From positions 12,814,501-12,878,500 of the forward strand of contig NC_092671.1 in assembly GCF_964355755.1 (NCBI RefSeq): DNA of 64,000 bases, given 5' to 3'. Each line of letters opens with the position of its first letter. The first letter of the stretch is position 1. The translations under genes and the position numbers were made by a program. The notes below the pieces were generated by a model that was given only the letters and a program-made list of their open reading frames with translations, had not been told where the DNA came from and ran no database searches. The stretch comes from Antedon mediterranea. Lineage: Eukaryota; Echinodermata; Crinoidea; Comatulida; Antedonidae. This document shows, piece by piece, positions 34,901-64,000 of this stretch.

Positions 34901-36855
34901 GGGTAATTGATGAGGAGTTCGATCTGACTGAGAAGGATTGTGTCATGTTCATGACACAAATATGTGAAGGCATGCAATTTATGCATGACAAGAAAATTAT
35001 CCACTTAGATATGAAGGTAATGGAAATTAATTTTTTAAAGTTAATACAGTGCTTTCTGAAAACAAGGCTAAGCAGAAAAATACTATAAGAAGTGGGGTGG
35101 TTGCTCGGTGGAATGGAATCCTCGGTTACTGATACCTACGTTCAACTGTGAAAAGATGTCAGAATTTTTTCTTACGACATGTTAAACTCTACTACCAAAG
35201 ACATCTGTTGTTTGTCTTGTGAAATGTCTGTCTTGAGGACACTGATTTTCACTCTGGGCAGTCCTTGGCTGTGTGCCTAGAAATTTTTGAAAAAGTATTA
35301 AATAATAGCAGTAAAACATAATAATATTATTTTCATTTTGCTCTTGCAGCCAGAAAATATCCTTTGTGTCCGTAAAAATAGTAACAAAATCAAGATTATT
35401 GATTTTGGTTTGGCTCAAGAGTTCAAAGATGGCTTGAAGGTGTCTTGTGGTACACCAGAGTTTCTAGCACCAGAAGTAGTTACATTTGATCCTGTCAATG
35501 TTAACACTGATATGTGGAGTGTAGGAGTCATTGCATACGTTTTGTAAGTTTTTGTGGGTTTGTTTTACTTTTACTTAATCAGCTACACATCTATATTCAC
35601 ATACTGTATTTATATAAGTGTGTTGTGTTTATCATTATAAGAACGTTCCTAAAATGTATCAACCTCCTCCATTTTTTTATTTATGCCTATAATTTAAGAT
35701 TTATCTAAAACATACTCTTCTTTAAACTTGGTTCCTCTGATATTTTATTGGGAAAATCACCTCTTTACTTTTTACGTATAGGAGGCGAGTGGTACACCTT
35801 ATTTTATTTTAATTTTTAAAAATTGTATTTCAGATTGAGTGGATTGTCACCTTTCATGGGTGATTCAGAGGGTGAAACAATGACAAACATCTTGAAGGTT
35901 GAATGGGATTGGGATGATGAGTGTTTTGATGATATCTCAGATGCTTCTAAGAACTTCATTGAAAGTTTACTGAAGAAAGAAAAAGAGTAAGAAACATATT
36001 GGCTGGACCGATAAGTTATTATCAATTTAGCTCCAATGTTAAATTTGGAAACCTTAAGAGGAATGGTTCATATCAATGATTCAACAACTATTATCTCAAG
36101 CAGTAGGGACAGTAACTACCAAATGTTACGAATAAATCAACGCCTTCATCTACAAAAACTATGTTTTCAGACATCAATTTCCAAGAGAGTAATGCAATGT
36201 TTCTAAATCTCTGTCTACACTATCAAACCTAGTTTGACAAAGAAAGTGAGATGTGCCCAAATATGGTAGCAATATGACATCATCATGTCCATATATGGGC
36301 ACATCACATTTTTTGTCACATAAAGTTTGATAGTGTAATCAGAGCTTCAGACATGTTATTGGCAATATTTCCATACCCTAACATATGATATATTATTATT
36401 TCAGGGACAGGAATAGTGCCTCACAATGCTTGCAGCATGATTGGCTGATTAAGGCTGGTGCCGCCTCCTCCAAAGCCATCTCAAAGGCTAAGTTGAAGAA
36501 ATACGTTATCAGGAGGAAATGGCAGGTAAGTTAAAGCGACACTGCCTTGAACTTGAATACATGGGTAGACAATTTAAATAAATTAATTTAATGAATCCTA
36601 CAATTAACTGATCAAACTAGTTTTTTTCAGACTTCATATCCATAAAAACATACTAATATTCTAAAAACCGTAATCAACAAATACATGAGTTTGAATTACA
36701 CAACAAACAAAACCTCTTTTTATTAATAATATCTAAAATAATTTACCTATATTAATATAAAATTCAGAAATAGTCATATTTTTCTTTTTGTTTTCAAATT
36801 ACAGAAAGGCATCAACGCAGTGCGTGCGATGATCCGTGTAAAGTCGATTGTCTAG
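22960..36855 (+). CDS. MYLK: Myosin light chain kinase, smooth-muscle type (Ig-Fn3-kinase-CaM site)
   Basis: Thirteen exons give 546 residues: 22960-22966, 24061-24382, 32199-32230, 32723-33025, 33348-33374, 33702-33786, 33980-34079, 34377-34480, 34875-35016, 35350-35543, 35834-35986, 36405-36525, 36805-36855. Domains: Ig about 5-105, Fn3 121-221, kinase about 250-505, then the helix RRKWQKGINAVRAMIRV, very close to the calmodulin-binding and autoinhibitory segment of vertebrate smooth-muscle MLCK. Catalytic residues are present: glycine loop GKFGTV, Lys280, HLDMK with Asp372, DFG at 392-394, GTPEFLAPE. The product should phosphorylate myosin regulatory light chain under Ca2+/calmodulin control. 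It lacks the long N-terminus and the C-terminal telokin Ig of vertebrate MLCK. The first exon holds only ATG TCT G. It is the middle of three linked, same-strand muscle-type genes. Confidence 0.87.
24061..24382 (+). CDS. Ig domain exon of gene B
   Basis: The exon encodes an I-set Ig with Trp in SVKWYVDDEEV and TIKCEASNNA. Its donor GTAAGG overlaps an in-frame TAA at 24384-24386, so unspliced or read-through RNA would encode a stand-alone single-Ig protein of about 110 residues. Use of the donor (phase 2) fits exon 32199-32230 exactly. Confidence 0.75.
25743..25850 (-). repeat. 5S rRNA-derived element (SINE3-type head or 5S pseudogene)
   Basis: The minus strand carries the 5S rRNA body: caccggttctcgtcagatta, gaagttaagcaacgttggg, ggttagagctaggatgggag, then accatctgggaatattgggt, covering the internal control region. 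The first 14 or so bases of 5S are missing, and the 3' end runs into unrelated sequence down to about 25600, as in SINE3 retroposons. It is not a functional 5S gene. Confidence 0.8.
26531..26616 (+). promoter_or_regulatory. Candidate alternative promoter/first exon, proximal intron
   Basis: Within 90 bp there are two ATTGG (inverted CCAAT) words, a perfect CArG box ccaaatatgg at 26543-26552 and an ideal donor CAG|GTAAGT at 26616/26617. A non-coding first exon here could splice to 32199 and start translation at 32221. Inferred from motifs only. Confidence 0.3.
27542..27872 (+). repeat. Dispersed repeat R3, longer copy with inverted ends
   Basis: The left end ttaaagatgtattgtccact is mirrored by the right end gggggacaatacatattta. 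The right half matches 6241-6406. A partial inverted copy of the left half is at about 33119-33200. It lies in the long intron of gene B. Confidence 0.6.
30068..30427 (+). promoter_or_regulatory. Candidate internal promoter for short MLCK isoform
   Basis: Two copies of the 15-mer ctcatttgcatatca (octamer ATTTGCAT) are at 30068-30082 and 30193-30207. A ZNF143/Staf-like site, tcccataatgcattggga, is at 30318-30335. The following 90 bp are unusually GC-rich for this region and end at a TAG|GTAAGT donor (30427/30428). This fits a non-coding first exon spliced to 32199. Inferred from motifs only. Confidence 0.4.
31500..31990 (+). repeat. Diverged tandem duplication (about 275-bp period)
   Basis: tatgtcttcataaacatctc, a 'ctttaaaaaagttt' word and tagagggcagtattcatatt near 31540-31645 recur as tatgtctccataaacctctc, 'ccttaaaaaagttt' and tagagggcagtattcccatt near 31818-31910. 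No coding potential. Confidence 0.6.
32199..32230 (+). CDS. Small linker exon with internal start codon (short MLCK isoform)
   Basis: A 32-bp exon, phase 2 to 1, after a ttttgcag acceptor. Read from upstream it joins Ig to Fn3. It also contains ATG CCA GCA at 32221, which would begin a 429-residue Fn3-kinase isoform if transcription starts in the preceding intron. Confidence 0.7.
32723..33025 (+). CDS. Fibronectin type III domain of gene B
   Basis: The exon opens with PEPPADTPFAS and contains SVTLVWAG, YDGGAAVTGYHVEM, LIFRVSCLNSVG and SKPSDVSEP, the strand pattern of an Fn3. The wording is very close to the Fn3 just before the kinase in vertebrate MLCK. Confidence 0.9.
33119..33200 (-). repeat. 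Dispersed repeat R3, partial inverted copy
   Basis: The reverse complement of this stretch (including aatatgccattttgatggc and gatatactgtcgctctg) follows the left half of the 27.5-kb copy. It lies in the intron after the Fn3 exon of gene B. Confidence 0.5.
33517..33650 (+). repeat. Dispersed repeat R4, copy 2
   Basis: The core ctgtgggtatcagtggttgg is followed by ctttcaatgg and an A-rich tail with spaced gcaa words, as in the other two copies. It is intronic in gene B, just before exon 33702. Confidence 0.55.
33702..36855 (+). CDS. Protein kinase domain and calmodulin-binding tail of gene B
   Basis: Eight exons from 33702 to the TAG at 36853-36855. Asp of HLD is coded at 35008-35010 and DFG at 35401-35409. 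The final two exons split the CaM-binding helix after RRKWQ, at the same site as in gene C. Confidence 0.9.
36208..36347 (+). repeat. MITE family M1, copy 4
   Basis: This copy has both inverted ends (left tctctgtctacactatcaaa, right ttgatagtgtaatcagagct) and CArG-like words at 36257 and 36289. It sits in the kinase intron of gene B between exons 35834-35986 and 36405-36525. Confidence 0.8.
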
Positions 36856-43267: not shown

Positions 43268-46200
43268 ATGGATGTACTATCGCTTATATGCCAAACAAAA
43301 CCTGATATTGTTATAAGAATATTCGGTGGCAAAAGATACAGGTAAGAAAAGCATGTATTCTCAACATATATCTAGGCTATGGAAAACTCTTAGCAGAATG
43401 ATTGTTCTATAGTAAAAGTATTACTAAGTTTATAACATTATTACTTCAATATTCATGAGTAAAAATTAGTAAGATATGAATACATTCAATAATAGCAATT
43501 TTATTGTTTGTGGAGATTGTTCATATTTTTATTTTATTTATTTATTTCACCTTATTTATAGAGGGTGACCATAACAATTTAATTGATAACTAAAATATTT
43601 TTGTTTAATTTATCATTTGAATTTTAATTTATAACCTGAACCATTGTTTCCAAAACGATTTTGGAATTTGTTTTACAAAAAAAAAATCTGAAAAAACGTC
43701 AACTAATAAGTAATTAACTAATAAAATCAATTGTATAAACGGCGCCACTGACATATCATTTCATTGAACAAACTCATATGTTTCAACCCACAAACTTATT
43801 TTTAATTGACACGTGTCTTTCATTAACTAAAGGTCTAATGATTGTAGGAGGCTAGCTTCAGAAGGTAACTTGGCTTTGCTTTCACACAGTGCCACGGAAG
43901 GTCGGGTAAATGTAGGGAAAACAGCACTAGGAGTCGATATAGATGTAGGCCTATGTAGGCTCACAGAATTCAGTGGACAACAAATTTGTAAAACAGGTAT
44001 GATTTTATTAATTGATATTACTTAAAAATGTGCCAGTACAGTACAGCTATAAATTACTACTCCGTTCCCACACATAACCCTTCATAGCCTACGCATGGGG
44101 CATTGTTTTTAAATCATTTTAGCGATACTGAACATGTTAACAAAAAAAACTAGTGTATTTGCAAAAGTAGAATGAATGAAAAAATAATTGACAATAAATG
44201 TCTATCAATCGCAAATATGTTTGAAATTAATAAGAGAACAGTTTTTTAGCCTATATATTAAAATATTTAAAATTCTCAATCACTTCTACAGATGATATTG
44301 GCTTAAATGGGACTGAATTAAAAGAAAAGGAATATCCCACAACTGAACAGTGTCATTGTCCTATTAATAGTGTTATTGACTCCCAGACAAAGTCTTCTGA
44401 GATATGTCATAATCATTGGATGCCAAACAGCGTGACTGACAATGAAAATATCCCAACTGCTCATTCCAACACAAAAACAGAAATTAACAGAGAGTGCAAG
44501 AGTACGAAAGCAGTGAAGCGTGGATCAGGCCTAAGCAATGAAACATGCATAAATGCAGATACAAAACTGCAAAAAGATGAGGAGGGGTATTCAAATGTTA
44601 TTAAACCTGATCTACATGTAGCAATGAACAGTGAAGAGTGTTACGAGGATTTAGAAAGTAAAAAAATTATGGATGCATCAACAATAAAAGATGAGGCACT
44701 ATCATCTTTATCTAAACTGCCTACTGGTATCAAAGTTACAGAAAAATCTCTTGCACCTACAGGAACGAAAATGGATGAGTGCAAGAAGGATCACAGAACA
44801 ATTGACAGTCCTCCAAAGTGTGACAAAAACAGTGAAAAAACTCAAGATGCATTATTAGGAAGCTCACAAAAGAATAGTGTAACAGAAACAGGGTTCTTAT
44901 ATACTGAACCTAATGGTTACTCAAATTCAATGACAAATGTGAGTGACCATTTCATTACAGAAACAGGTTTGGAGGAAGTTGAAGTTCACGAGAAATGTCA
45001 GACAGAATCTAATATTATTGCAAGCAATGACAAACAAATAGGAAATTTAAAACTTCCTAGGAATAACTCTAGCATAGATCAAGATATTAAAAGTGTTGGA
45101 ATTTCCGATCAAAGGAGTAAAATTAAGGCAACAGATGATGCAAATGCTATGAAACAAAGTATAGGCTTTCATGGCAACACGAAAGAAAATGAGGATGCAG
45201 GAGAAGGAAAAGCTTGTAATATGGATGAAGAAAACAACAATTTAACAGAAACAATTCCTCTATGTATATATAAGCTTTCAGATTGTATAAAAACTTATGA
45301 GCATGAACCTGTTATGTTGAATTGTAAGTTTACAGGACATCCGCAGCCTAAGGTCAGATGGTTACGTGAAGGGAATGAAATACAAAACGACGGCGAGTCT
45401 ATTCTTGATGAAAGTGATGATGGAAATTATTTGTTGATAATATCAAAACCTACCGTTCATCATTCTGGAAATTATGTATGTATTGCTGAAAATACTGTAG
45501 GGTCGGCAAAGACAATATGTTCATTAACAGTATCCAAACAAGGTGAGTTTGTTTTCATTATGGCATTAATAGACATGATATCTACAAAGGAGGAAATAAA
45601 TAATACAACAATTAGTTGAGCTGCTTTTAATAATAGGGAGCTTTAAAATTTGGGATTTTATGTCATTGATATCTCTACAAAATTATGTCGAGAGAAATCA
45701 AGTGAAGAAAAACATCCCAATGTTGCTGTGCGTAATGACGTAACTAGGTTTTAGGTCTTGTGTCATCGCAAATGAACACTCCCTAATTTCATAGAAAGCA
45801 TGCATACATTTTTGTAAACCATAATTTGTAAGCAATTTTCACAATAATAATAAAAAATATATTATGTTTGGTAATAATTATCTGTAGCTTTCAATATAAT
45901 ATATTTGGGTCATGTCCTCTAAATCCTGTTACTGTAAAACAACTACACAAACGAGGACTATACTTGCCTAATGATTTGAAAAACTTAAAATAATAAATAA
46001 GCTTTAAAATATCATCAACAACTTAACACTTTGAATAGCTCTTTGTGCAATAACTTAACAGACAATTTAGAATATGAAATCAGCCAAAGTCTAATCTCAT
46101 AAAAGATGTTATGAATATGAAACTGTTGCAAAATTGTTGTGTTATTGGTTGTCAGACAACCGTTAAATTATAAATATTACATTGTTGTTAATACTGCTTT

Positions 46201-49127
46201 CTATTCATTTTCTTTAGCAACTTTCTCCACTACAGACATGGACGAGAAGGAATGCCGAAGGGCTGAAGAGAACTGTAAGTTATACACTTTTCAGAATATT
46301 TATTTATCAATTATGTGTGTTTTAATGTGTCTTATGAAATGATCATAAAAATATGTATTTTTTAATATATGTGGCGTATTCACCAATTAAAAAAATATTT
46401 CACTTAAGAATTTTTAAAGAATTTCCTTTAAGTAGTATTTACTTTGAAGAATTTTTAAATTTTAAAGGTAAGTGTTACCCATAACAATATGTAAGTAACT
46501 ATCAATAGTTTCTATATATGAAAACATCTGTTTTATATCTCAGGTGACACACCAGCCTTTGAAAGTACCCCAAAAGATGTTTACGTTTTGCAAGGAGAGA
46601 GTGCCACTCTTACATGTAAGGTCTTAAACAAACATCTGCCTCTTATCACATGGCTCCGAGATCATGATGTTATTGCAAACGGTGGACGATTTCAGACGTA
46701 TTCAACTGTAGATGGGACATGTTGCCTGCAGATAGATGATGTTGATTACGACGATATTGGGGAGTACAAATGCTTGGCTGTTAATTCTGGAGGTGTTAAA
46801 CAAATTACAGCATATTTAGAAATTGCAGGTTAGAGCATACTGCATACATACAATTACGATAATTATATTTAATAAGTCAAATCAAAGATATTTTTTCTGT
46901 TGCAGTAGCCAAGTTTGCTATACAGAAACGATAACAGAGCATGGAAAGGAATTGGCCTCCCTACCATATAATGCCGAGGCTTAGTAAAATGAGCTCCTAA
47001 CATATCATTTCCCTACGTTCAGAATAAATTTGGGAATCACCTTTGCCTTTATACTATAAATGGCAAATATGATTGATAATAATATGTATTGTAATACCTA
47101 GATGAAAACGATGACTAATCAGATTATGTTTAAGATAGTAGTGGTAACGATAATGGTAATGCTGATGACATTGACGACAACAATATTAGCAGTAACTTAA
47201 AATTACATTATGAGCTTAAATTATTAGGACAGCTAATGATATTATCAATATCTACTTTAAAGAAACACCAATGATAAATCAAGCATTGGCAACTCAGTAC
47301 GCACTTGAAGGGCAAAAAGTACAGCTTGACTGCGAAATTGAAGGAATTCCAGAACCACATATTTCCTGGTACAAAGACGGTGTTTTAATTACTAAATCAG
47401 ATCGACACAGACAATCTGTAACGAAATATGATGTGTATTCGCTATCAATTTATGATTTTGAACCAAGTGATGTTGGAGAATACAGCGTACATGCTAGTAA
47501 TATGGCAGGGAGAACGTCATGCTCGGCTTTAGTTCAACTAAAAGGTAAATAAAAAAGAACCCCTTCAGAACAAAAATTTAATGTCTATGGTCATGTGAAT
47601 TGATCTTATATAATATAAACAGAAATGATACTCCTGTAGAGAGATGATTTAGTTTTTAGTAAGATTACATTGATAGGTTTTAAATATTTGTTACAGATGG
47701 AAATAATGTAATTATTAAGAAAAACGAAGATCTCGAAGATCACTACAATGTGTTAGAAGAACTTGGCAGGTTGGTAAAATTACATCAAACAAATAAATAA
47801 ATAATAATATTTTCGAATGCGAAAATTGTGTATTTCTATAAATTTTTCATCATTATTTCTGAGGTAACATTTAAATGTGAAAACAATATTATTTGATTTC
47901 ACTGTAAAATAAATATGATGTGAAAATTAGGGGGGCAAGATTGGATTGGATTGATTTACTAAGTGTCCAAATTGAGCCTAAACATATTATGGGTGGGACT
48001 ATACTTTAGTATAGGATTATACTCAGTCATACGGTATTTATTGAAAGTTTGCATTATCTTAATTAGAGGAGCATTTGGAATAACAAAACGGTGCATTTCA
48101 TTTGATGGGAATAAAACGTATGCAGCTAAAATTATCAGGATACGAAATGGGAACAAAGATGATATTTATAGAGAAATCGATATTATGTCATGTCTGGATC
48201 ATCAGAGACTAATCAAGTTGTATGATGCTTATGAAACTAGAGGTGAAATCACAATGGTAATGGAAATGTATCCTTTAAAACATTCATTTGTCTTATGTAC
48301 AAAATAATTTTGGTTTGAATAAATAAATATTAGATCGTATACATATTTTCTTCATTTTAATGAATAACACTTACTAAGTTAGAATACATATACCACAATT
48401 AAACTTACGTAATATAAAAATCTTCTGATATGTCTCCCTCTATAGGTTAAGATAATCTTTACCATGCCTCAAGCTAAAAAGTTTTTTTCTAATTCAAATT
48501 ATTTAATTGTTTTTTATTTGTATTGTAATTTCATAGGATGATGTACATCATCATTATAAGTCTATTAATTTAAAATAGCAATAATAATAATCCTTAATAT
48601 TATGAAAACTACAAATTAATTGAATATAATACAAAAAAAATCAGACATAAAATCTAAACTGATCAGTGATATACTAATTTTTAAATGAAATTTTAAAACA
48701 AGGAGAATGATAAAAAGTTGTACCAACGAAGATTCGAACTTGGAATATTCTGCTTGATATGCAGACATCCTACTATTAGACCACTGGGGCTTTCATGATA
48801 TTGTTCAAAACAGTAGTAGCAGGTATTCATATGATACTGTATGAGAAATTTTATTTTTAAATATATTAGTTTACACTACTATAAGCAATCACAAACTAAC
48901 CCTGCCGGAAGACATAATCCTTATTGATAGGAATAAAACATGTTGTGGCTTCTAGAACAATAGGCCTAGCCTACAGGTCATGAGAATGTGTAAATCTCAC
49001 CAAACTAACCAAAAACGTTTAAATCAAAATACAATATCTGGAATTAAGTAATATTGACAATTAAAATTTTTGCTACTGTTTTTTTTTCTCGTAGACCTAA
49101 ATCCTACAGGGTTGATTCTCCTAATAC

Positions 49128-49193
<66 letters not shown>

Positions 49194-52100
49194 TTATTAC
49201 TTCCATTCTAATCATGTATTACTGTAAATATAATGAATAAATATGAAATCTATGGTATCTATGTCATAGCAGAATAACCTATATTCATACAGATTTGGTA
49301 TTATAATACTCTATTGTGCTTGTAAGTACAGCATGATTCTACCAAACAATATAGATTAAGCTCATATCCTGTACTGTTTACATACAGGATACTTGAAACA
49401 CATCCACTGATAACACCCCTTCATAATGAATGGTACAGTCTGGTCTTCAGATCAAAAGACCATAGATGATAATCTGTAGGGTGGTAATCAGAGGCAAAGT
49501 TAAACTTTTTCGACTGATTGGAATCAGAGAATGGCGATTTAATAGGCATAATATTTATATATTGTTGGTGTGCATATGGCATACTTGTTCTCAATGGATT
49601 GTCTATCACATTTATTATAGGATTTTAATGAAGGGTTACGTGTTTTCAAAAACATGGAAGATTTAGAAAGGTACGTAAACTTCACAGTTTATACAAAGGT
49701 AGGACTTACTGATTTAAATAAAGATTAAATTTGATTTGGATTGTTTTAATCAGGTATAACTCTGCTAATGGAATTGTTTAATTTCATACCAAATTTATTA
49801 CAACATTATTCATAATAATACTCTATAATTAGGCCTAAAGCAGAGAATTGTTCTTTTAAATTAAAATAAGTTTTTGATCTTTTTTAATTGAATTTCATCA
49901 ACTGGTGTAATTATACTACTACAGTATTAGAAAAGAAGTTTTGTTTTTACTTTCCACATATTTGTATGTAGTTGGTTTATAGTAGTAGCATAATTTAGTA
50001 TTGTTTCAATATGAGGCAATATGTTCCTTTTATTTTTCATTGTCAAAGAACAAATATTACATCTTGTTTCAATTCAAGGCCATGTAATTTAGTAAAAGCT
50101 TGTCTGCAAAATTCCTCTTTAAAACAGAATTAATCTACGAGATGTGTGGCAAATAGAGAGGCACCAGTGAATGTTTCGTGCCAATATTTTATAGCCCAGC
50201 TATTCAACCTATGAGTCATGAGCTAACAACCACCTGATCATGCTACATTTGTAACCCCACCAAACGAAAACAGTAGCCTAAAAGACCTCCATGTTCAAAT
50301 TAAACAGTAACCTACAAACACAGTTTACCTATTCGACATAACAATTGTAAACAATGAAGCCCTATAACAATGAACACTTTTTGAAATTTGCTAAGCCTCC
50401 CTAGTGGGATCTTTGGGCCTTTTGTACCCCACTACAGAATACCTTTAAAACACATTGCAAATGAACAAGTAAATATTAGCACAGTACAGTATACAAATAA
50501 AACCAATAAACACAATTGTATATATACTCCTATACCTAATATGTACAATTTTTAAGTACATGCCTAACAAAATCCACTACTTTGATCAGAGTGTTGTTTA
50601 CGTATGTATGTTTATAACTATAATATAAATATAATTAAAATATATTTTAGTACTCTTGAACCAGGTCATATAGGTAAAAGTGCTGAATGAAAGTTCAGAG
50701 CAAAATAGAATAAATTGACTAAAACTTTTTGATTTTAATTCACTATGGGCTGTTTCATGAGGGTTCGCGGGTGTATAGCTCGGAATTTTGGCCAACTGTA
50801 TGTTCAATCTCTATCAGTATATATACTGTTACATGAGACTCACTAAGGTGAGGAGATCATATTTTACGAGACATGCACTCTTCAAATATTATTAGAGTCA
50901 AGGTGGAAATGCTATACTTTTTTTTATTACTGAATCCAATATAGTATATGCCCTTGAAATTGGAAAAAAAAAACAAGCAATACAAAAAATCATGAACAAA
51001 TAATACCAGAATATTCATTAGAAATATTTTCTTAACCTGCAATTAACAGTGTGACTGGTGGTGAATTATTTGAGAGAATCATAGACCAGGAATCATTCAC
51101 CGAAGACAGAGCAGCCTTCTTTATACGACAAGTTCTTGAAGGTCTACAGTACATGCACAAGAAAGGTGTTGTCCACCTCGATCTGAAGGTAAGAATCCAG
51201 AATGAAATGGCCAACTACTACTATAGAACATTTAAATTGGGATATCCCTATTCAGGGAACACTTTTTCACAAAACAAAAAATATTAACACTACAGTAAGG
51301 GACACTTTGTTGTGTCCAAAAAGTGTCCTACTATACTTCTATTCTACTATTAAAGACTACTAGCTTTTTTCTCATTTACAAAATCACTGATTAAGCCAGA
51401 TAGAGAGTAAGAATAGGAACTAAAGAAAATATCAAAGAATAATCACAGATCATAAAGGGTTCAACTTCCACTTTCATATGATTCAGCATTTTTTTTTTAA
51501 ATTATAAATAAAAATTATATATTTATGGCATTGTGGGAGAACAGTCGTTTTCTACTGAACAGACAGCCCAGTATAAAGAATAAAGAAATTAAAATCCTCA
51601 AATCAGTATATACAAAAGCTGCAGTAAGTCTGAAAACTAAAAGCCTAAAATATTTATAACAAAAGCTCAATACCAGTATATAACATATTTTCAGAAAATC
51701 TATACTTTTAGATATTTTGCAGGAAAATACATGGACAATAATTTTATACTAATATCTAAAAACAATGTACTGCTCTACAAGTTTCCTTTATTGTAAAGTA
51801 TAAGTATGTCTTAGATGAAATGATTAAAACTGATAGATTAAAATAATACAAAGGAAAATAAAATGAATTATCAAGAAATGATGCTCTTTTGGTCTACCTT
51901 TCATTCACACTTAATTCATTTTGTAAAAAAACGATAAATGAAAAAAATTTATAAAATAAAGTAAGATGCATTTAAAAAAAGATTGTTCGTTTTACAACAA
52001 TTACAACTAGTTGAACACAATGGAAAAGAAAATCCTTCAAAATAAAAAATAATGTGTTTATCATATTATTGCTCAAAACAAAACTAAAATGATTATGGTT

Positions 52101-55100
52101 CTGTGATAAGGGATTTTATTATTGTCTTATTTTGTCCTTGAATCAATTACTAATTTCTGGTATTGTTTGACTGATTAAGGTTAATTATCTATTTTATAAC
52201 TTATTTTTGCTTTCTGTTTATATCATATTGTACACTCACTTTAAGCTTGAAATGATTGTAAAGGTGAGTCTTGTGTTCATTCTGAACATAATATGAGAAT
52301 GAGCTGTTTGTACTAAGACTCATCGTTATGTGGTAGGGTGGCCTTCTTTCCACCCCGTCTTATCCTCCCTACTGTAGTATTTTCGACCAGGTACAGTGGA
52401 CTGTTGAGTGGACTGGGAGTTGTCGGAAATTGAACCCGGGTTTCTCTGTAGGACAATCAAGTATCCTAACCACTCGGCTACCCAAAGTGTTTCTACGAGG
52501 TTAAAATTAACCCATCTTTGACCTTTTCAATGCACAATATTATTAAATAACGTTTTAGGTATTTACGCTTCTTGTAAATCCAACTACAAACAAATGATAA
52601 CAACCAATGAACACTTATAATATCATGCATGATTATTTTTCTATTATTATATTTCAGCCGGAAAATATTCTTCTAGAGTTCGGAAACCGAGATGACATTA
52701 AGTTGATAGATTTTGGATTAGCACAGAAATTACTTCCAGGGAAAAATATCACATGCAAAAAAGGAACCCCGGAATTTGTTGCACCAGAGCTTGTGAAGCA
52801 GCAACCAGTTACAAAAGAGAGTGACGTGTGGAGTGTTGGAGTTATTGCATATATATTGTAAGTATGAAAGTAGAATACGAAAACTACTAAAATAGAAATT
52901 ATAGTAAGATACTATTAGTAAAGACAGGTTTGCTTTTATGTTTTCAAAAGGAAATTGAGAAAGGTTGAGATCTACACATTTACTACAGTATTTATCCAAC
53001 AAACCTTTAAATAATATTGTAAAAATTAAATAAAATTAATATGTAAATATAGTGGAAATATAACTAATATAAAAGCTGGTAGCCTATTTTTTATTTTAAT
53101 GTGGTTACTCTTACAGTATCTACTATTATTATTAACCATTATTTCCATGCCCAATGAAAGGGATAAATATAATCTGTTTTCAATGATTCCAGATTACTTA
53201 TTAATAGTACATTTTCAGTTTATCCTATGAAACATTAGTTTAAAAGGTTATAAGATTAACATAGTAAGCCTAGATTATTTAAACTTACACACAATAGTAT
53301 TTTGCTCCTGGCATGAACAGCAATTTAAAAAGATATTTTGTTGATAAAAAAAGGACTGAAATAAAAGGATAATTTAGAGGATAAGCAGCTATATTGGGGT
53401 TTAATTATTATTTATTATGACCATGCTTATTGACATAATGTCTTAATAATATAATAATTTACTACTGTGTCTTAATTTTCTTTAGGCTTAGTGGATTATC
53501 ACCATTTCTTGGAGATACAGATAGAGACACATTATTGAAAGTTAAAAGTAGTGAATGGGATTTCGATGATGAAGTATGGGATACCATCTCAGACGATGCT
53601 AAAGAGTTTATATCTAAACTTCTGAAAGAAGAACCAAGGTAAATAGAGTAATGCAAAGTTTTATCGTGATGATGAGAAATTAAAGCTCAGGTACAGGCAT
53701 GAATTTTAAATATAATATTTGGTTAATTGTACATAAATCAAATATTTGTAACAGAAATCGAGACGAAAAAACATGAATTTCCCTTAATATGGTCAAATAC
53801 AAAATTTGGCAAAATTCTTCCATAAAAACCAGGAAGACTTTTTTTCAATAGTTAGGTAGTTAACCTAATGTAATAACATGTCTGGTGACTCCCTAGACGG
53901 TGAAAAAAGATGGTGGATATACGGTGGATAATTTTTGCTATAGCATGAAAATAAAAATCTGAAGTTGAATAAAAATATCAGAAATGTAATATTCAAGTTA
54001 TATTACCTATATTTAGTCATCTGATAACATTTTTTACCACACTGTTTATTTTCCATAGCTTTTTAAAATGCCTCTCTATTTACAAAATTTGTGTACAAAA
54101 GAATAGAGATTTTACCGTGTAATTTGAACTATCCCCCCACTGATAAGAAAGTGCTTATTTTCAACAAGCTCGTGTAACACAAATAAAATCCCCAAAATTA
54201 TGAAACATAGGGGAAACTATAGATCGATAATTATTGGAATGTATGATCAATAGAAATTTTTTGCCCGTACCTGGCCTTTAATTTCAAAAGTAAATATTAT
54301 GAGCAAAATAAGTCAAAGTTTGTTCTTGTTTCTATTTTCATTCATTCTTTCTTGTTTACAAAATGATACAAAAGAATTAAAGCTCTAGGTCAATCTCTAT
54401 AAGACACAATAAATTTATAACAAGCAACAATGTTGTTATAAGACCCTCTTACAACCCACATGGTACTTGAAAAAGTTATTCAAATACAAAAGATCAATAA
54501 GTAATTCAATTACCATTGAATTATTAATTCATATTTTCAGTGACAGACTGGCTGCCGAAAAGTGTCTGCAACACAAATGGCTTAAGGTAAATTTGTTTAT
54601 TTTTTCTGAAGAAATGACCAAAAATCAATAAAATAGTCTAAATATTGCTTTATTTCATAGATATATAGCTTACCACTGTGAGGTGGCTCATACTAAAGTC
54701 TGCAAACTAATGATTTTGAAAATGGTGTTTTAGATGACTTTGTACATTATTTTGTTCAATTGAATTATTTTTAAGGTTGAAGAATTGAAATATGCAGAAA
54801 AAGAAAGAGCCAGGATAAGCACGACTAGATTAAAAACTTTCAACTCTCGAAGAAAATGGCAGGCAAGTAATTTCTTATTTTTACTGTATGTCAAAAGCAG
54901 TATCATAGTATGCATACTAAATCTGAAGATTAAATCGTATGCAATGCATACAATAAAATATATACTGTATAAGTCACCCAACCCATCCAGAAAACAAAAA
55001 GAAAATTGACAGAAATATTTCTTTTTGTTTTGTTTTGAAGAGTTATTAAGCCTACAAATTCTTTTAATTCAACGGACCCACCTTTATCCTTTATATCAAT

Positions 55101-57433
55101 ACACTACTAATACTATTCATTTATCTCTTTTCAATATACAGAGAGCGTTGACAGCTGTGAAATCTGCTATTAGAATATGTCGTCTATCATCGCTAACAAG
55201 TATAAAAAATGGATCGGGAAAAAGTGCAAATACTACAGTAACCTGTACAGAAGAACCAATATTGGAAGGAGGAACAATTTCAAAATCAATTATTCAAACA
55301 GCAAAAACATGTAGCAAAGATGTACCAAATAAGTCTACAACAAATCAAGAGAATTTGAAGACCGGAAAAGTTGCAGGAGTAATACGAGATATGGAAAGAA
55401 GAATCTCCGAAACAGACCGTGGAGATTTTACAAATAACACTAAAGGTATTGATGAATACAGTAATGTTGCATGTCTAGAAAATGACTGCAGTGATTGGAT
55501 ACAAACAGATAACCGTTTGGAAAGTAGCAATTTACAACCAATTAACAAGGATATTCCTTATGCTGAATTGAATGCATGCAACTGTAATGTTGAAAAAACT
55601 AACAAAGAGAGTACACTAGGTGAAGACACAAATTGTGTGCATGTGAAAAATGAAAGTTGTGTCTCGCATGTAGACCATGTAGCAATAGAGGACACACAGT
55701 TTGTCTCGCATGGAAATTCAACAGAATCTAATAATGTAGAAAACTGTAATACACAACATAAAGAAGCAATTTCACAAATACCACTTACGATGGATGCTGA
55801 ACCCAATACAGTTGTCATTAATGCATCAGATGACATAGGACGAACATTTTCATTAAAATTAGAATCTTCCCATATGGTATCTGGTCTTACAATTGAATCT
55901 CCAGCTGTAATTTCTTCGGTCTCATCAGACACACTTGCATCAAATTGTGATGCTGTGACAACTCTTGTGGGGTTCTTTTCGGAGAATTCATCAGATTCTA
56001 TAACAGAAGCACTTCCAAAAGCAGCAGCTGATTTGCAATATGGTTTATTGAACCAAGAGAAGGAACCAACTTTAAGTTACATTGATAGAAATGGAAATAC
56101 AGGTAGACAAAATGGAGAGAGCAGTGCTTTTTCCAACCAAACGAGTAAAAGTAATGGAGAGAGCAGTGCTTTTGCCAGCCAAAAGAGTAAACGTAATGGA
56201 GAGAACAGTGATTTTGCCAGCCAAATGAGTAAAAGTAATGGAGAGAACAGTGCTTTTGCCAGCCAAATTAGTAAAAGTAATGGAGAGAACAGTGCTTTTG
56301 CCAGTCAAACAAGTAAACGTAATGGAGAGAGCAGTGCTTTTTCCAACCAAACGGGTAACAGTAACAAAGAGAGAAATGTTTTGGCAAGCCATGGAAATAA
56401 AAGTAATGAAGAAATCAGTACAATTGCTAGTAGTAAAAGTAGTAATAAGAGCACTGCTTTAGCCAGTCAAAGAAGTAAAAGTATTGGCGATATCAGTGCT
56501 TTTGTTGATCAAGGTAATACCAGTATGAGAAGACGTCGACTCATTAAGTCTTTGACAATTGACCAGCCAAATCTTGACAAACAAACATCCTGTGCAACAC
56601 GTAGAAGGATTTACTCAGCCAATGATGAAATTGAACCAAATTCACAAGAAAGTCTCGATAGTGTTTTCACTGATATTCTTGATGATGCAACAACATCAAG
56701 GTCTTCATCATCTTCAGATTCAACTTCACGTCAACTGCCTTCAACAAGACGAACATCAACACTTTTCAGCATATCAGAAAATGAGGACATTAAAAAAATA
56801 GAGAATCCTAGCGAGGCAAATAGCCCCCCATCTACAACAAATAAGTTAATAAAGCGGAGGTCGACATACCAAAAATGGTCACAAGAATCGCAAGACTCAA
56901 TCGATGTACCAATTAATAAAAAATCTGAAGAATTTTTTTCACAAATGAATACGGATATCATGGCTGCTGATGCTGGTCGTCAATCAAAGTCAAAGAAACG
57001 TAGAACTGGATTTGCATTTCAACCGGGGCAAGATTCAATCCCAGCAAATGCTTTCTTAAACACAAGTGAAGAAGAATCACCTAAAATGTTGTCAGTTGCT
57101 GCAGTGATGATGAAGCTGCATATGAACAGACAAACATCGAGGACACCGAAAACAACCGATGAAACAGATAAACCAAAAACTACTGAAAGACCTAGTTCAA
57201 AAAAAATTACACTTACTGGTCAACAAAGAGAGCTTTCTCCACAAGATATTGAAAACAATCTAGACTTTCTTACAATATCGGATGATGAAAATTTAAACTT
57301 TCCTATCACATACAAAATGTGGCAATTACAAAATAATAAATATGCCAATATGGTTGTTGGTGGTTTATTTGGACTTTTTCTTGGCCTTTTATTTAGGTTT
57401 ATTATATCTATTATAACTGACATTATCCTCTGA
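43268..57433 (+). CDS. Ig-Ig-Ig MLCK-like kinase with C-terminal tail anchor
   Basis: Fourteen exons give 1762 residues: 43268-43341, 43848-43996, 44292-45542, 46218-46274, 46544-46828, 47263-47544, 47697-47769, 48067-48267, 51050-51188, 52658-52857, 53486-53638, 54541-54586, 54776-54862, 55142-57433. The start is chosen because an in-frame TAA lies 18 bp upstream and the AG|GTAAGA donor fits the next exon. Layout: unrecognised N-terminus 1-74, charged Ser/Thr/Asn-rich region 75-395, Ig about 395-490, Ig 511-605, Ig 606-699, kinase about 705-970, MLCK-like CaM-binding helix RRKWQRALTAVKSAIRI, disordered tail with tandem repeats, hydrophobic segment 1736-1762 at the very end. Lys745, HLDLK (Asp835), DFG (855-857) and GTPEFVAPE suggest an active kinase. 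The kinase belongs to the obscurin/SPEG/MLCK group; no family member known to me has such a tail anchor. It lies at the place of the obscurin C-terminal kinase. Confidence 0.82.
44292..45542 (+). CDS. Large disordered exon plus first Ig of gene C
   Basis: A phase 1-1 exon of 1251 bp. About 320 residues of Lys/Glu/Ser/Asn-rich sequence without a recognisable domain precede an I-set Ig with MLNCKFTG, Trp in KVRWLREGNE and NYVCIAENTVG. Confidence 0.9.
46544..47544 (+). CDS. Second and third Ig domains of gene C
   Basis: Two phase 1-1 exons (46544-46828 and 47263-47544), each a whole I-set Ig: ATLTCKV, ITWLRDHDV and GEYKCLAVN in the first; QLDCEIEG, ISWYKDGV and GEYSVHASN in the second. The third Ig has Ser-Val where the second Cys is expected, so it lacks the usual disulphide pair, as is common in cytoplasmic Ig domains. 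Confidence 0.88.
47697..54862 (+). CDS. Protein kinase domain of gene C
   Basis: Exons 47697 to 54862. Key codons: ATP Lys at 48128-48130, HLD at 51174-51182, DFG at 52709-52717. The regulatory helix starts at RRKWQ in the last exon of this block and continues in exon 55142. The intron after RRKWQ begins with GC instead of GT. Confidence 0.9.
48718..48792 (-). repeat. tRNA-like sequence (SINE head or tRNA pseudogene)
   Basis: The minus strand reads agccccagtggtctaatag, then a B-box-like aagttcgaatctt, with tRNA spacing. The acceptor stem does not pair well. It lies in the long intron of gene C. Confidence 0.4.
49128..49193 (+). repeat. (AAT)n microsatellite
   Basis: About 22 uninterrupted AAT units. 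Read on the other strand it gives a spurious poly-Tyr frame. Confidence 0.95.
52413..52492 (-). repeat. tRNA-like sequence (SINE head or tRNA pseudogene)
   Basis: The minus strand has gggtagccgagtggttagg (A box) and aacccgggttcaatttcc (B box), close to a real tRNA in the D and T arms. The anticodon and acceptor stems are degraded. It lies in the gene C kinase intron. Confidence 0.5.
55142..57433 (+). CDS. C-terminal exon of gene C: CaM helix, low-complexity tail, tail anchor
   Basis: One 2292-bp open exon of 763 residues. After RALTAVKSAIRI comes Ser/Asn/Thr-rich sequence with no fold that I recognise, a 42-bp tandem repeat block, several basophilic-kinase-like sites (RRRLIKSLT, RRTST, KRRSTY), and finally about 20 uncharged residues (VVGGLFGLFLGLL, then FIISII) just before TGA. 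Two charges, Arg and Asp, interrupt the hydrophobic run. Confidence 0.85.
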   Translation, partial: RALTAVKSAIRICRLSSLTSIKNGSGKSANTTVTCTEEPILEGGTISKSIIQTAKTCSKDVPNKSTTNQENLKTGKVAGVIRDMERRISETDRGDFTNNTKGIDEYSNVACLENDCSDWIQTDNRLESSNLQPINKDIPYAELNACNCNVEKTNKESTLGEDTNCVHVKNESCVSHVDHVAIEDTQFVSHGNSTESNNVENCNTQHKEAISQIPLTMDAEPNTVVINASDDIGRTFSLKLESSHMVSGLTIESPAVISSVSSDTLASNCDAVTTLVGFFSENSSDSITEALPKAAADLQYGLLNQEKEPTLSYIDRNGNTGRQNGESSAFSNQTSKSNGESSAFASQKSKRNGENSDFASQMSKSNGENSAFASQISKSNGENSAFASQTSKRNGESSAFSNQTGNSNKERNVLASHGNKSNEEISTIASSKSSNKSTALASQRSKSIGDISAFVDQGNTSMRRRRLIKSLTIDQPNLDKQTSCATRRRIYSANDEIEPNSQESLDSVFTDILDDATTSRSSSSSDSTSRQLPSTRRTSTLFSISENEDIKKIENPSEANSPPSTTNKLIKRRSTYQKWSQESQDSIDVPINKKSEEFFSQMNTDIMAADAGRQSKSKKRRTGFAFQPGQDSIPANAFLNTSEEESPKMLSVAAVMMKLHMNRQTSRTPKTTDETDKPKTTERPSSKKITLTGQQRELSPQDIENNLDFLTISDDENLNFPITYKMWQLQNNKYANMVVGGLFGLFLGLLFRFIISIITDIIL
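56105..56520 (+). repeat. 42-bp coding tandem repeat (14-residue unit)
   Basis: About six good and several decayed units of SKSNGENSAFASQI-type sequence. Units differ by a few substitutions (AFSNQ/AFASQ, KRN/KSN), and the frame is kept throughout. It lies between the kinase and the tail anchor. Confidence 0.9.
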
Positions 57434-60400: not shown

Positions 60401-61113
60401 CCACAAAACATCTTGATCATCACTTAATTTGGGATTAATTAATTAAATTTTTATTGTTTAAACTGAAACTATTTACTTAAATGATTACTATATCTTTTAC
60501 ATTAATAAAAAAAACAAGACAATTATAATATACCATATATTATATTAGCTATATTCATATATATAATATATATGTTAAATGCACTTAGCTTGTTGTCTAT
60601 TTTTGTTGTGCTATTACTGTATTAGACTTAGATAATTATTATTTTCCTAAATAAAATATTAAAATGATGTTACTCTTTTTCTTTGTTTCATATTGTTAAA
60701 TATTTAAATATTGTCATATTTGTTAAAATTAAGTTTACAAAGAATTTTCGGGTGATACAGGGCATCTCGACTGAACACGTAATATCATTTTTTACTTCTA
60801 TATCAAATAAATCTTGTGGTCCGTTTTGAAAACAAATTTAAATGTAATACACATTCTTGGCATGTCACTAAATGCAGATCAGTTTTTAACCAATGATTGC
60901 ACTAAATGTTTGAAAAACATTTAATATAAATGTAAGTAAATTGTTTAAAGTATGCTATAAAAAATTAAATATATTCCGATGCAATTTTCAAAAAGGTTAT
61001 CCCAAAAATCTTAAATGCACCATTACGGATAATGCCTAAATGGAGATTTCAAAAATCATCAGATCAACAAAAAACCTAATATGGAAACTAAAGATACCTA
61101 TTTCTAGACGAGT
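57434..61113. other. Convergent intergenic region, gene C and VPS8 3' ends
   Basis: It holds the 3'UTRs of gene C (plus) and VPS8 (minus) and AT-rich spacer. No coding exon seen. Three AAGGTCA-like half sites cluster at 58425-58455. Confidence 0.6.
57745..57750 (+). terminator. Candidate polyadenylation signal of gene C
   Basis: AATAAA in agcaaataaagttg lies about 310 bp after the stop. A second candidate, aaaataaagcactg, is near 58358. Confidence 0.4.
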
Positions 61114-63673
61114 TTAGTCTTGTTGCATTGGTGGTGCAGCCAGACGAAGTTGGAAACTTTCTTTCTTTAGAAAACTATTATCCCTGACAAGTTCTACACC
61201 TGAACTTTGACCTGAGCTACGACTGTCCCTGATGACATCGCATAGAATGCCCATCTAATAAGAGATAAAGAAATTATAGATATTTAATATTTCCATTCAT
61301 AAGCAACATATATATATTATATTATTAATAATATTCAAAGGCAAATCACTGAAAAAATGACAATGCTGTGGGTATCAGTGGCTGGATTTCAATGAGATAC
61401 AAAATAAAATAAGCAAAAAGCTAAATCCAAACAATAAAGTACAACAGCAACAAAAATTAGCATAATAACATTTGGTTTGTCTTTGCAGTCTTGTAATACA
61501 ATACAATATCTTACCCTTGATGGACCTTCTGCTTCTTTTTTAAGTAACTTCAATGCTGCTGTTTGCTCTGGATCCAAGGTGTCAAGCTGAAAATAAATTT
61601 GTTTAAATTTACATTTCCTATGTTATTTGTTTATACATCTAATTTATCTATATTTTATACTCTTGAACAAATATAATAAAATAGGTTTAAAGTTTAAAAA
61701 ACAAAGAAACTAGGAGTAGCTCCTTATCTATACCTTATTTGAATAACTCTTTGTTGGTTTTCTAACTTCTGATGAAATTTTATCTTCAGAAAAACTTAAT
61801 CTTGTTGCCTTTTTTTGGTTTGGGTTCTTCCATCGCCTAGATGTATTGCACAATAAACAACTCCAATGGAGCTTCCCTTCGATGAGAGTGGAACAGCCCG
61901 CTGACTGAAGACAGCTTGCATGATAACCATGGATACAACTGCAGAGAAAAATATACTTTATCACAAGCTACTTCTTTCATTTTCGGATGTATTATCAACA
62001 GATATGTGTACATGGGGAAGTCTGATCTACAACCAACTTCAATTATTATTTTAGTTACTTCAAAACTAAGCAAATGAATGTTTGCTTAAACTATACATGT
62101 TATGATCAATGTTTTTGTTAAAAGTGTTGATTTTAATGCAAATCAAATCATTCATTTATTCATTATTACCTGAAAATAATCACATCAGCAGAAGATGAAG
62201 AAGAAAAACGTTGTGTACAGATTGGACAGTGCTCTGCTCTTGAAACAATACCTTTATTTGCAGTACTTGTCAGGTTAGTAAGTGACCAGTACAAATCCTG
62301 CGCAAGCAGTTGGTTTGTAGTGTTTAGCAAAGTCTATAATTATACAGAATGAAATGCATGATAAAAAAGTTTAACGACCTCTAATCAGAGACAATTTTGT
62401 GGCCATTAATTAAGCTATATATGAATCATAACAATATATATAAAAATCTTTTTTCAAAAATCTTACTAAATCAGTTAATACATATAAAACAACAAAAGAG
62501 GTTTGGTTTAAAAAAAATAATGACCTGTTCATAGTTGTATGTATCCAGCATGCCCAATATAAGTTCCTTTATTTCACCAAAGTTACCAGAACTATATGTT
62601 GGATCCTGAAAAAAAACCAATAAATATTAGGATATTAAATACATTCCGGCGTTTAGTACTTCAGAGTGCTATCGAAATACAAGAAAGCTATAGACAAAAA
62701 ATGTATTTGTTTTTTATGCAACAGAATAAAATTACCTGCATTATTTTCTGCAAGATTGATGGTAAAGCTATGTAACCCAGCATACTGTTTAAAACATGAG
62801 TTGTTAACATTTTAAAATCTAAAAGTAAAACAAATTTTATAACAGGTTAACAATAACAATATATTTGCAATTTTGCTGTCTTACTAACAGTCACTACTGT
62901 ACAAGTAATCAATTAATTATTCTACCATTAAAATGTGTTTCCATTTCAGTGCCTTTAAGTTTTCTTTGGGTCATCATCATAAGGTCAAGCAGTGGAAACC
63001 AAATAGACTGAAATGTAGAACAATCAAAAATAATAGTTAAACTTCTTTATATTTACATATATTATAATAATTCACTCTCAGGATATAGTTACATAAACAA
63101 AAACAGTGGTATATTTGTTTCTGTTAAGACTTCCTTCATTCTATGAATTCATGAGGAAAAATGTATATAGGTTTTTGGAGTGAATTCAGACAACAGCCTT
63201 GTACTTGTACTGCTTTATGAGCAAACCTTTTATGTATTCGTCCTAAACAGGAAATGAAATAAGCTATTTACTAGCTATTTGTTAAAACTGATTATTTTGT
63301 TTATGTACTGTTTGTGCCTGAAAATACCTGACGCTGTGGCTCATCCATTACAGAAGAACTTCTCTGACAGAGTTGAACAATCACCATTAATACAGCTTGA
63401 ACATTTGAGATAATTAAACTAACTAAAAAAAAAGAAGAAAAAGCAAGTAATTATTAGATCTTCATATACAATCAAGGAATTACTTCACGATCACGTTCTG
63501 TTATTGACTTTTCGACACTTACTTTTTGCCTTATCTTTCGTATCAACAATGTCTGTATATAGGCAAACTTTCACCTGAAGAGCCTCAATCAGAATTCCAA
63601 ATGCACCTTGAATATCACCTGCCTTCTCAAGCAAGTAAGCTGTTGCATCAGATACCTTGTAGTATCGAACAAT
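61114..63673 (-). CDS. VPS8: VPS8 homologue (CORVET subunit), C-terminal exons
   Basis: Nine minus-strand exons join in frame to 357 residues plus stop, in transcript order: 63523-63673, 63328-63422, 62926-63007, 62736-62818, 62525-62605, 62170-62333, 61734-61938, 61515-61586, 61114-61254. The frame opens with IVRYYKVSDATAYLLEKAGD and GAFGILIEALQVKV, as in the helical repeats of VPS8. It then carries a RING-H2 finger, starting CPIC in exon 62170-62333 and continuing CIHGYHASCLQ and CLLCN in exon 61734-61938, and ends with a conserved short tail. VPS8 is a core subunit of the CORVET tethering complex on early endosomes. The N-terminal WD40-like part lies beyond the right edge; 63674-64000 appears intronic. 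No functional link to the muscle genes is evident. Confidence 0.9.
61341..61450 (+). repeat. Dispersed repeat R4, copy 3
   Basis: The core ctgtgggtatcagtggctgg is nearly identical to copy 2. It lies in the VPS8 intron between exons 61114-61254 and 61515-61586. Confidence 0.55.
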
Positions 63674-64000
63674 CTTGAACAAAAATAAGATATACATAAA
63701 TATACTGAATGATGGGTTATAGGGGACAATAAGAAAATTACAAAAAATGTAATAACTTTGGTTGAAATCTTCAAATAGCAAATCTATTATTTAAATACTA
63801 CTTGATTACTTCAGAATTATCATTAGAAAAACTAAAAATCAATCATATTAATTCCACAGGTTAGAAGACCACAGAGCTGCAGTAGAAAGAAACACACACT
63901 AAAAATGTAGCTAGAGACCATTTGGGAAGTGAACATAATAATAATCTAAAAAACTATTATTATTACTCCTATGACTTTAACATGGTTAATACAATGCGAG

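Follow-up and report, generated by a model that had tools for sequence, protein, structure and literature searches.

Accounts of the titin/MLCK/obscurin class present its protein kinases as soluble enzymes or as bound to filaments, with partner proteins linking them to calcium stores. Can a kinase of this kind also be fixed to a membrane by a helix of its own? The question is raised by a gene on the plus strand of a 64,000-nucleotide stretch of DNA from Antedon mediterranea (hereafter ‘the window’, positions 12814501-12878500 of contig NC_092671.1 in a 354 Mb, 18-contig assembly; coordinates are those of the window unless the contig is named). A sequence-only reading of the window had proposed that this gene joins Ig domains, a kinase and a calmodulin-type helix to a 763-residue tail with a hydrophobic, membrane-anchoring end. 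Its observation is confirmed by the analysis reported here and its tail-anchor interpretation appears likely, while the destination and role that it suggested can be put forward only conditionally. As read from the sequence, the frame is intact, the kinase is spliced to the tail, the C-terminus is of transmembrane (TM) grade and there is no comparable segment elsewhere in the protein. We consider it probable that the gene encodes a calmodulin-regulated kinase of the DMT class (MLCK/DAPK/obscurin-like) that is also a C-tail-anchored membrane protein.

Kinase and tail form one protein

Splicing in silico of 14 exons (43268-57433), at sites picked by hand and with all phases consistent, gives a single frame of 1,762 residues whose only stop is the terminal one, a TGA at 57431-57433. 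Twelve introns are GT-AG and one, the last, is GC-AG. This splicing reproduced the protein length, tail length and exon boundaries given earlier. The last exon, exon 14, is open along its whole length and encodes the entire tail (residues 1000-1762). Exons 1-2, for which there is no homology support, are the most doubtful stretch of the gene model and may be wrong; the finding of a hydrophobic end is unaffected by them.

The last intron (54863-55141) cuts through the calmodulin-type helix, with exon 13 ending in RRKWQ and exon 14 opening with RALTAVKSAIRICRL. The 1-5-8-14 pattern, which we take to define such a helix, runs across the junction as W998, L1002, V1005 and I1011, and the alignment of the kinase with DAPK1 in the PDB continues over it. 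In all four kinase genes compared (the studied gene and three upstream neighbours, termed A, B and C) the exon break lies at the identical place within the helix, after TGGCAG; for kinase A this is less certain, since the exons joined there are almost 15 kb apart, across what is presumed to be an intron. At this position the studied gene uses a GC donor, and kinases A, B and C have GT donors. Because the helix is split between the two exons, and is split in the same way in A, B and C, kinase and tail exon can be assigned firmly to one protein, the GC donor notwithstanding. The gene thus has, as judged from its motif, an autoinhibitory/calmodulin-type helix C-terminal to the kinase, from which control by calmodulin is predicted.

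Upstream of the junction, Pfam identifies three Ig (I-set) stretches (residues 409-479, as Ig_2, 522-599 and 608-697) and a Pkinase domain (residues 716-969, E 1.1e-74). The Pfam matches, the PDB alignment and the spliced frame together support the domain order proposed before: Ig, kinase, calmodulin-type helix, tail, hydrophobic end. Residues K745, E760, D835, N840 and D855, which we take to be the catalytic Lys, Glu, Asp and Asn and the Asp of the DFG motif, are all in place, and from them the kinase is predicted to be active, as the earlier description of it as ‘apparently active’ implied.

The C-terminus has the character of a membrane helix

The last 27 residues (1736-1762) read MVVGGLFGLFLGLLFRFIISIITDIIL; an Arg stands at position 1751 and an Asp at 1759, and G1739, G1743 and G1747 form a glycine zipper of the GxxxGxxxG type. 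The segment scores 2.34 in Kyte-Doolittle hydropathy (KD19), -11.6 as a sum on the octanol scale and about -3.0 in apparent insertion energy (dG). Since the position weighting applied to these scales is our own, the scores were calibrated on proteins of the same genome. Compared with 95 peaks (selected at KD of at least 1.4) from 16 genes for G-protein-coupled receptors (GPCRs), the segment lies at fractions of 0.63, 0.68 and 0.86. By comparison, the best dG in ten soluble kinase domains, that of the studied gene among them, ranges from +0.58 to +2.18. The octanol scale alone would be misleading, because a helix of the soluble kinase fold passes on it (-6.7 to -10.0 in nine of the ten domains). 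This calibration bears out the transmembrane character claimed for the segment.

The rest of the protein offers nothing similar. KD exceeds 1.6 in only one other window of the 1,762 residues, at the kinase helix around residue 894, and hydrophobicity as high as that of the last 40 residues is beyond chance, arising once when the tail was shuffled 20,000 times. AlphaFold2, run on the last 129 residues as a single sequence (and so weak as evidence), gave its final 29 residues block confidence (pLDDT) values of 86, 94 and 93, with lower values upstream. A hairpin turning at R1751 was considered and rejected, the same single-sequence model showing one straight helix. We take a C-tail anchor to be a single TM-grade segment no farther than some 30 residues from the C-terminus; here the single such segment lies at the very end, and the N-terminal 40 residues, inspected by eye and dependent on the uncertain exons 1-2, hold no signal core.

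An anchor, an extension or an optional end

Unless the assembly is in error or a rare splice intervenes, exon 14, if translated in frame, puts the hydrophobic end into the protein. When residues 1000-1747 were divided into 22 consecutive windows of 34 codons, 21 had a positive coding score, a partly circular result, as only the final 60 codons of the tail lay outside the training set. Within the last 204 codons the best donor-like site scores 2.7, whereas the 13 real donors, which also served to train the donor matrix, score 3.7-12.4; on these scores the end is not easily spliced off.

The alternative that survives best is that the end is translated yet forms no functional anchor, the frame having recently been extended in this lineage into T-rich 3' DNA (as by loss of an earlier stop) to give an end that could be neutral, weakly membrane-associating or a degron. 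Several observations count against an anchor, and most of them lend weight to this explanation. The codon statistics of the last 34-49 codons are ambiguous. The full codon score of the last 34 is -3.7. Of 32 hydrophobic windows from non-coding DNA (the introns used to train the non-coding model), 2 score this high, and of 163 from coding DNA (GPCR genes, each omitted in turn from the training), 6 score at or below it; the two sets average -8.0 +/- 3.3 (n=32) and 5.9 +/- 5.4 (n=163), respectively. The synonymous score is -1.1, with 10 of the 32 non-coding windows as high and 12 of the 163 coding windows as low, and a model trained on the gene gives the last 49 codons -9.6, barely the best of six frames (next, -10.2). 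On the two strands of 134 kb of local DNA there are 1,098 open frames that end in a stop and have 40 codons or more (a count that keeps real exons, the studied one among them); of these, 28 are as hydrophobic at their ends and 202 reach KD 1.6 there; for the 74 frames of at least 100 codons the counts are 1 and 10. The end would therefore be less remarkable if it were a read-through of non-coding T-rich DNA. R1751 lies in the middle of the helix and D1759 near the end of the hydrophobic segment, which speaks against a simple anchor. Finally, a genome search with the tail end returned itself and one match of E 1.01, in a frame that by eye is GPCR-like (and which was rejected as a paralogue sharing the end), although searches of this genome can overlook matches and do not by themselves prove the absence of copies. 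Comparison of the last 162 residues with viral contigs gave 22 pattern matches and no relative.

Set against such an extension, the chance of meeting no stop at the local non-coding rate of 0.0788 is only 0.06 over the last 34 codons and 0.006 over the last 62, and the strength of the segment falls within the upper half of the real TM helices of the genome and is accompanied by a glycine zipper. We therefore regard a non-anchoring extension as unlikely, though it deserves to be taken seriously.

Introns with GC donors are often alternatively spliced, and the last intron carries such a donor. It is thus conceivable that the usual mRNA ends elsewhere, through retention of this intron or through a donor within exon 14 (donor-like sites are present at 56103, scoring 7.4, and 56514, scoring 6.9), yielding soluble isoforms with the anchor a minor form or absent. 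However, the two sites correspond to residues 1320 and 1457 of 1762 and leave 442 and 305 open codons after them, with coding scores that are mostly positive in a model partly trained on them. Furthermore, no plus-strand frame of at least 45 codons that by eye resembles a coding exon occurs downstream as far as 64000, and the minus-strand frames found there resemble a convergent gene. An mRNA that usually ends elsewhere seems to us quite improbable.

A last and very improbable alternative, that the C-terminal segment is itself a regulator of the PLN/myoregulin type, a tail-anchored single helix ending at the membrane that binds a partner such as SERCA and carries the kinase along, draws on a layout like that of the tail-anchored regulins, whose helices also hold polar or charged residues (PMC8396278), and on the regulation of SERCA2 phosphorylation by the second kinase of SPEG (PMC12812942), but that layout is shared by many tail anchors and no sequence similarity is claimed.

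The kinase and its known relatives

In a search of solved structures (the best 60 of 2,733 matches) the kinase matched DAPK1 most closely (E 3.9e-77), followed by DAPK3, MLCK4 and twitchin, with obscurin and titin lower. It is 45-48% identical to the three upstream kinases. A tree of ten rows, from which obscurin, SPEG and Trio were left out, sets it in an open fork with A, B, C and MLCK4 (support 63/43), on a branch of its own of length 1.2. By its closest PDB matches the domain is thus a member of the DMT class (MLCK/DAPK/titin/obscurin), and the label is kept at that level, and no finer, because the tree fails to place it. The name of the class is taken from PMC10129394.

The gene resembles obscurin/UNC-89 and SPEG in its Ig domains, its DMT-class kinase and a disordered stretch ahead of the kinase. 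In obscurins a disordered linker and Ig and FnIII domains separate one kinase from a second (PMC10129394). In obscurin and SPEG, Ig and FnIII domains precede the second kinase. The studied gene, by contrast, has one kinase in its model, preceded by three Ig domains, and Pfam found no FnIII domain in residues 1-1038 at E 0.01; for these reasons it is not filed as obscurin. With MLCK and DAPK it shares a similar kinase sequence and a calmodulin-type helix that is RRKWQ-like where the exons meet; no C-terminal membrane helix is known in those kinases.

The statement that the known relatives are soluble or sarcomere-bound, on which the novelty of an anchored form was earlier made to rest, holds in outline but has to be qualified in two respects. 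First, obscurin and SPEG of vertebrates are linked to the sarcoplasmic reticulum (SR), where junctophilin is a partner of SPEG. Vertebrate obscurin is tied to the SR by sAnk1, which binds its non-modular C-terminus, and SPEG makes a similar connection, its second kinase regulating SERCA2 phosphorylation, whereas UNC-89 and fly obscurin are without ankyrin-binding regions (PMC12812942). Kinase domains of obscurin are described as binding or phosphorylating the membrane proteins N-cadherin and Na/K-ATPase beta1 (PMC12812942, PMC10967385). Obscurin and SPEG thus reach the SR through partners, and the excerpt of PMC12812942 mentions no helix of their own, while the studied gene has its own predicted helix.

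Second, a tail-anchored muscle kinase is known in another class, namely DMPK, an AGC-group kinase without Ig domains or an MLCK-type calmodulin helix. A C-terminal anchor is common to DMPK and the studied gene; the tails of DMPK are alternative versions, whereas the anchor described here lies in one terminal exon. DMPK isoforms A-D are tail-anchored at the endoplasmic reticulum (ER) or mitochondria (PMC2778554). Among the titles and opening lines of abstracts listed in searches of open-access literature, no tail-anchored kinase of the MLCK class was found.

The tail as a tether

Over its 763 residues the tail contains no Pfam family at E 0.01. As estimated from residue composition alone, order-promoting residues make up a fraction of 0.203 in the tail (1020-1715) and 0.211 in the N-terminal part, as compared with 0.358 in the kinase. 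Because order-promoting residues are few, 15% of the tail is Ser and a 14-residue unit is repeated within it (Table 1), we read the tail as probably a long, flexible and disordered tether. A genome search with the full tail returned itself and seven weak matches (best E 0.0013), all confined to tail positions 315-448, a region that takes in the repeat. Inspection by eye of 56500-57100 showed four blocks of basic residues (RRRRLIKS, TRRRIYSA, IKRRSTYQ and KKRRTGFA), three of them followed by stretches resembling QESLDS, QESQDS or GQDS, which are possible phosphorylation or docking sites.

Feature coordinates and locus setting

The features of the gene are collected in Table 1. Hexamers of the AATAAA type are frequent in the AT-rich DNA of the region, and the polyadenylation signal listed there is to be read accordingly. 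A genome search with the N-terminal part of exon 3, using a query with one wrong letter at residue 2, returned the self-match only.

Table 1. Features of the studied kinase gene, in window coordinates
Feature	Coordinates	Strand	Description
Exons 1-2	43268..43996 (43268-43341, 43848-43996)	+	Proposed ATG and short N-terminal leader; GT-AG, in-phase joins
Exon 3	44292..45542	+	More than 300 polar residues, probably disordered, then first Ig domain; open frame
Exons 4-6	46218..47544 (46218-46274, 46544-46828, 47263-47544)	+	Ig domains 2 and 3; phases fit
Exons 7-12	47697..54586 (47697-47769, 48067-48267, 51050-51188, 52658-52857, 53486-53638, 54541-54586)	+	Ser/Thr kinase domain of the DMT class, with its catalytic residues
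Exon 13	54776..54862	+	Regulatory segment, followed by GC donor (gcaagt)
Exon 14	55142..57433	+	Tail and stop codon
First 15 codons of exon 14	55142..55186	+	Complete the calmodulin-type helix begun in exon 13
Coding tandem repeat	56111..56419	+	42-bp (14-residue) unit, 6 copies at 56111-56364, related sequence on to 56419; Tandem Repeats Finder (TRF) score 382
Continuous predicted helix, residues 1720-1761	57302..57427	+	AlphaFold2 model
Predicted tail anchor, residues 1736-1762	57350..57430	+	GxxxGxxxG; R1751 mid-segment
Candidate polyadenylation signal, AATAAA	57745..57750	+	About 310 bases 3' of the stop; suits a terminal exon

The gene is one of five DMT-class kinases that stand in tandem on one strand over about 175 kb (contig positions 12694786-12868139): a titin/twitchin-like kinase (at 12.695 Mb), two MLCK-like kinases (A and B), an obscurin-like kinase (C) and the studied gene. 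As far as they go beyond Pfam and PDB scores, the labels of kinases A, B and E were assigned by eye. Such a titin-MLCK-obscurin cluster might be ancestral. By eye, kinases A and B continue after the calmodulin-type helix into an Ig-bearing exon, unlike the studied gene. HECT-ligase-like frames, also recognised by eye, lie within the long presumed intron of kinase A (contig about 12756400-12758800), and could belong to a nested gene, unless the join in kinase A is itself wrong.

Kinase C (33900-36530) closes a presumed single gene with PH and FnIII pieces and sub-threshold SH3-like and RhoGEF matches (Pfam, on unspliced sequence). The end of this gene (36380-36855) comes 16 residues beyond RRKWQ (KGINAVRAMIRVKSIV) with a TAG at 36853-36855, so that the kinase stands at the extreme C-terminus. 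Fusion of this obscurin-like gene with the studied one was rejected as the default, because the frame of kinase C is closed by that stop just after the calmodulin-type helix and its phase-0 donor fits neither exon 2 (phase 2) nor exon 3 (phase 1). The two are treated as separate genes by default, although an unseen linking exon is possible.

On the minus strand, frames at 61100-64000 resemble the 3' part of a convergent gene, perhaps VPS8, and two frames at 4127-4691 resemble, by eye, a fragment of a non-LTR reverse transcriptase.

Proposed mechanism and significance

If the C-terminus is an anchor, the Ig domains and kinase would remain in the cytosol, the long and probably disordered tail would act as a tether, and residues about 1736-1758 would enter an organelle membrane post-translationally. 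The ER/SR would be the more likely destination, suggested by a TM segment of normal hydrophobicity with little after it. The mitochondrial outer membrane would also suit, because the net charge ahead of the segment is +2 and R1751 follows 15 apolar residues; we lean to the ER/SR as roughly twice as likely. SLMAP has two tail anchors, and it is the less hydrophobic one that also reaches mitochondria (PMC2712456). The glycine zipper may pair helices and thereby favour trans-phosphorylation. Membrane insertion, the choice of organelle, calmodulin control, catalytic activity and expression in muscle are all predicted features of this scheme.

A broader and rather doubtful proposal is that in this lineage a calmodulin-regulated kinase of the obscurin/MLCK class carries a glycine-zipper anchor of its own that fixes it to the membrane of the SR/ER (or of mitochondria) and would replace the tethering by partners (ankyrins, for obscurin) of its vertebrate relatives, with the tail serving as the tether and the paired helix promoting autophosphorylation. 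If this were true, calmodulin-dependent phosphorylation would be placed directly next to calcium pumps and channels, and the gene would offer a one-protein system for what membrane tethering does to kinases of the titin/MLCK/obscurin class. It would also stand as a parallel to DMPK, that is, a tail-anchored muscle kinase invented independently.

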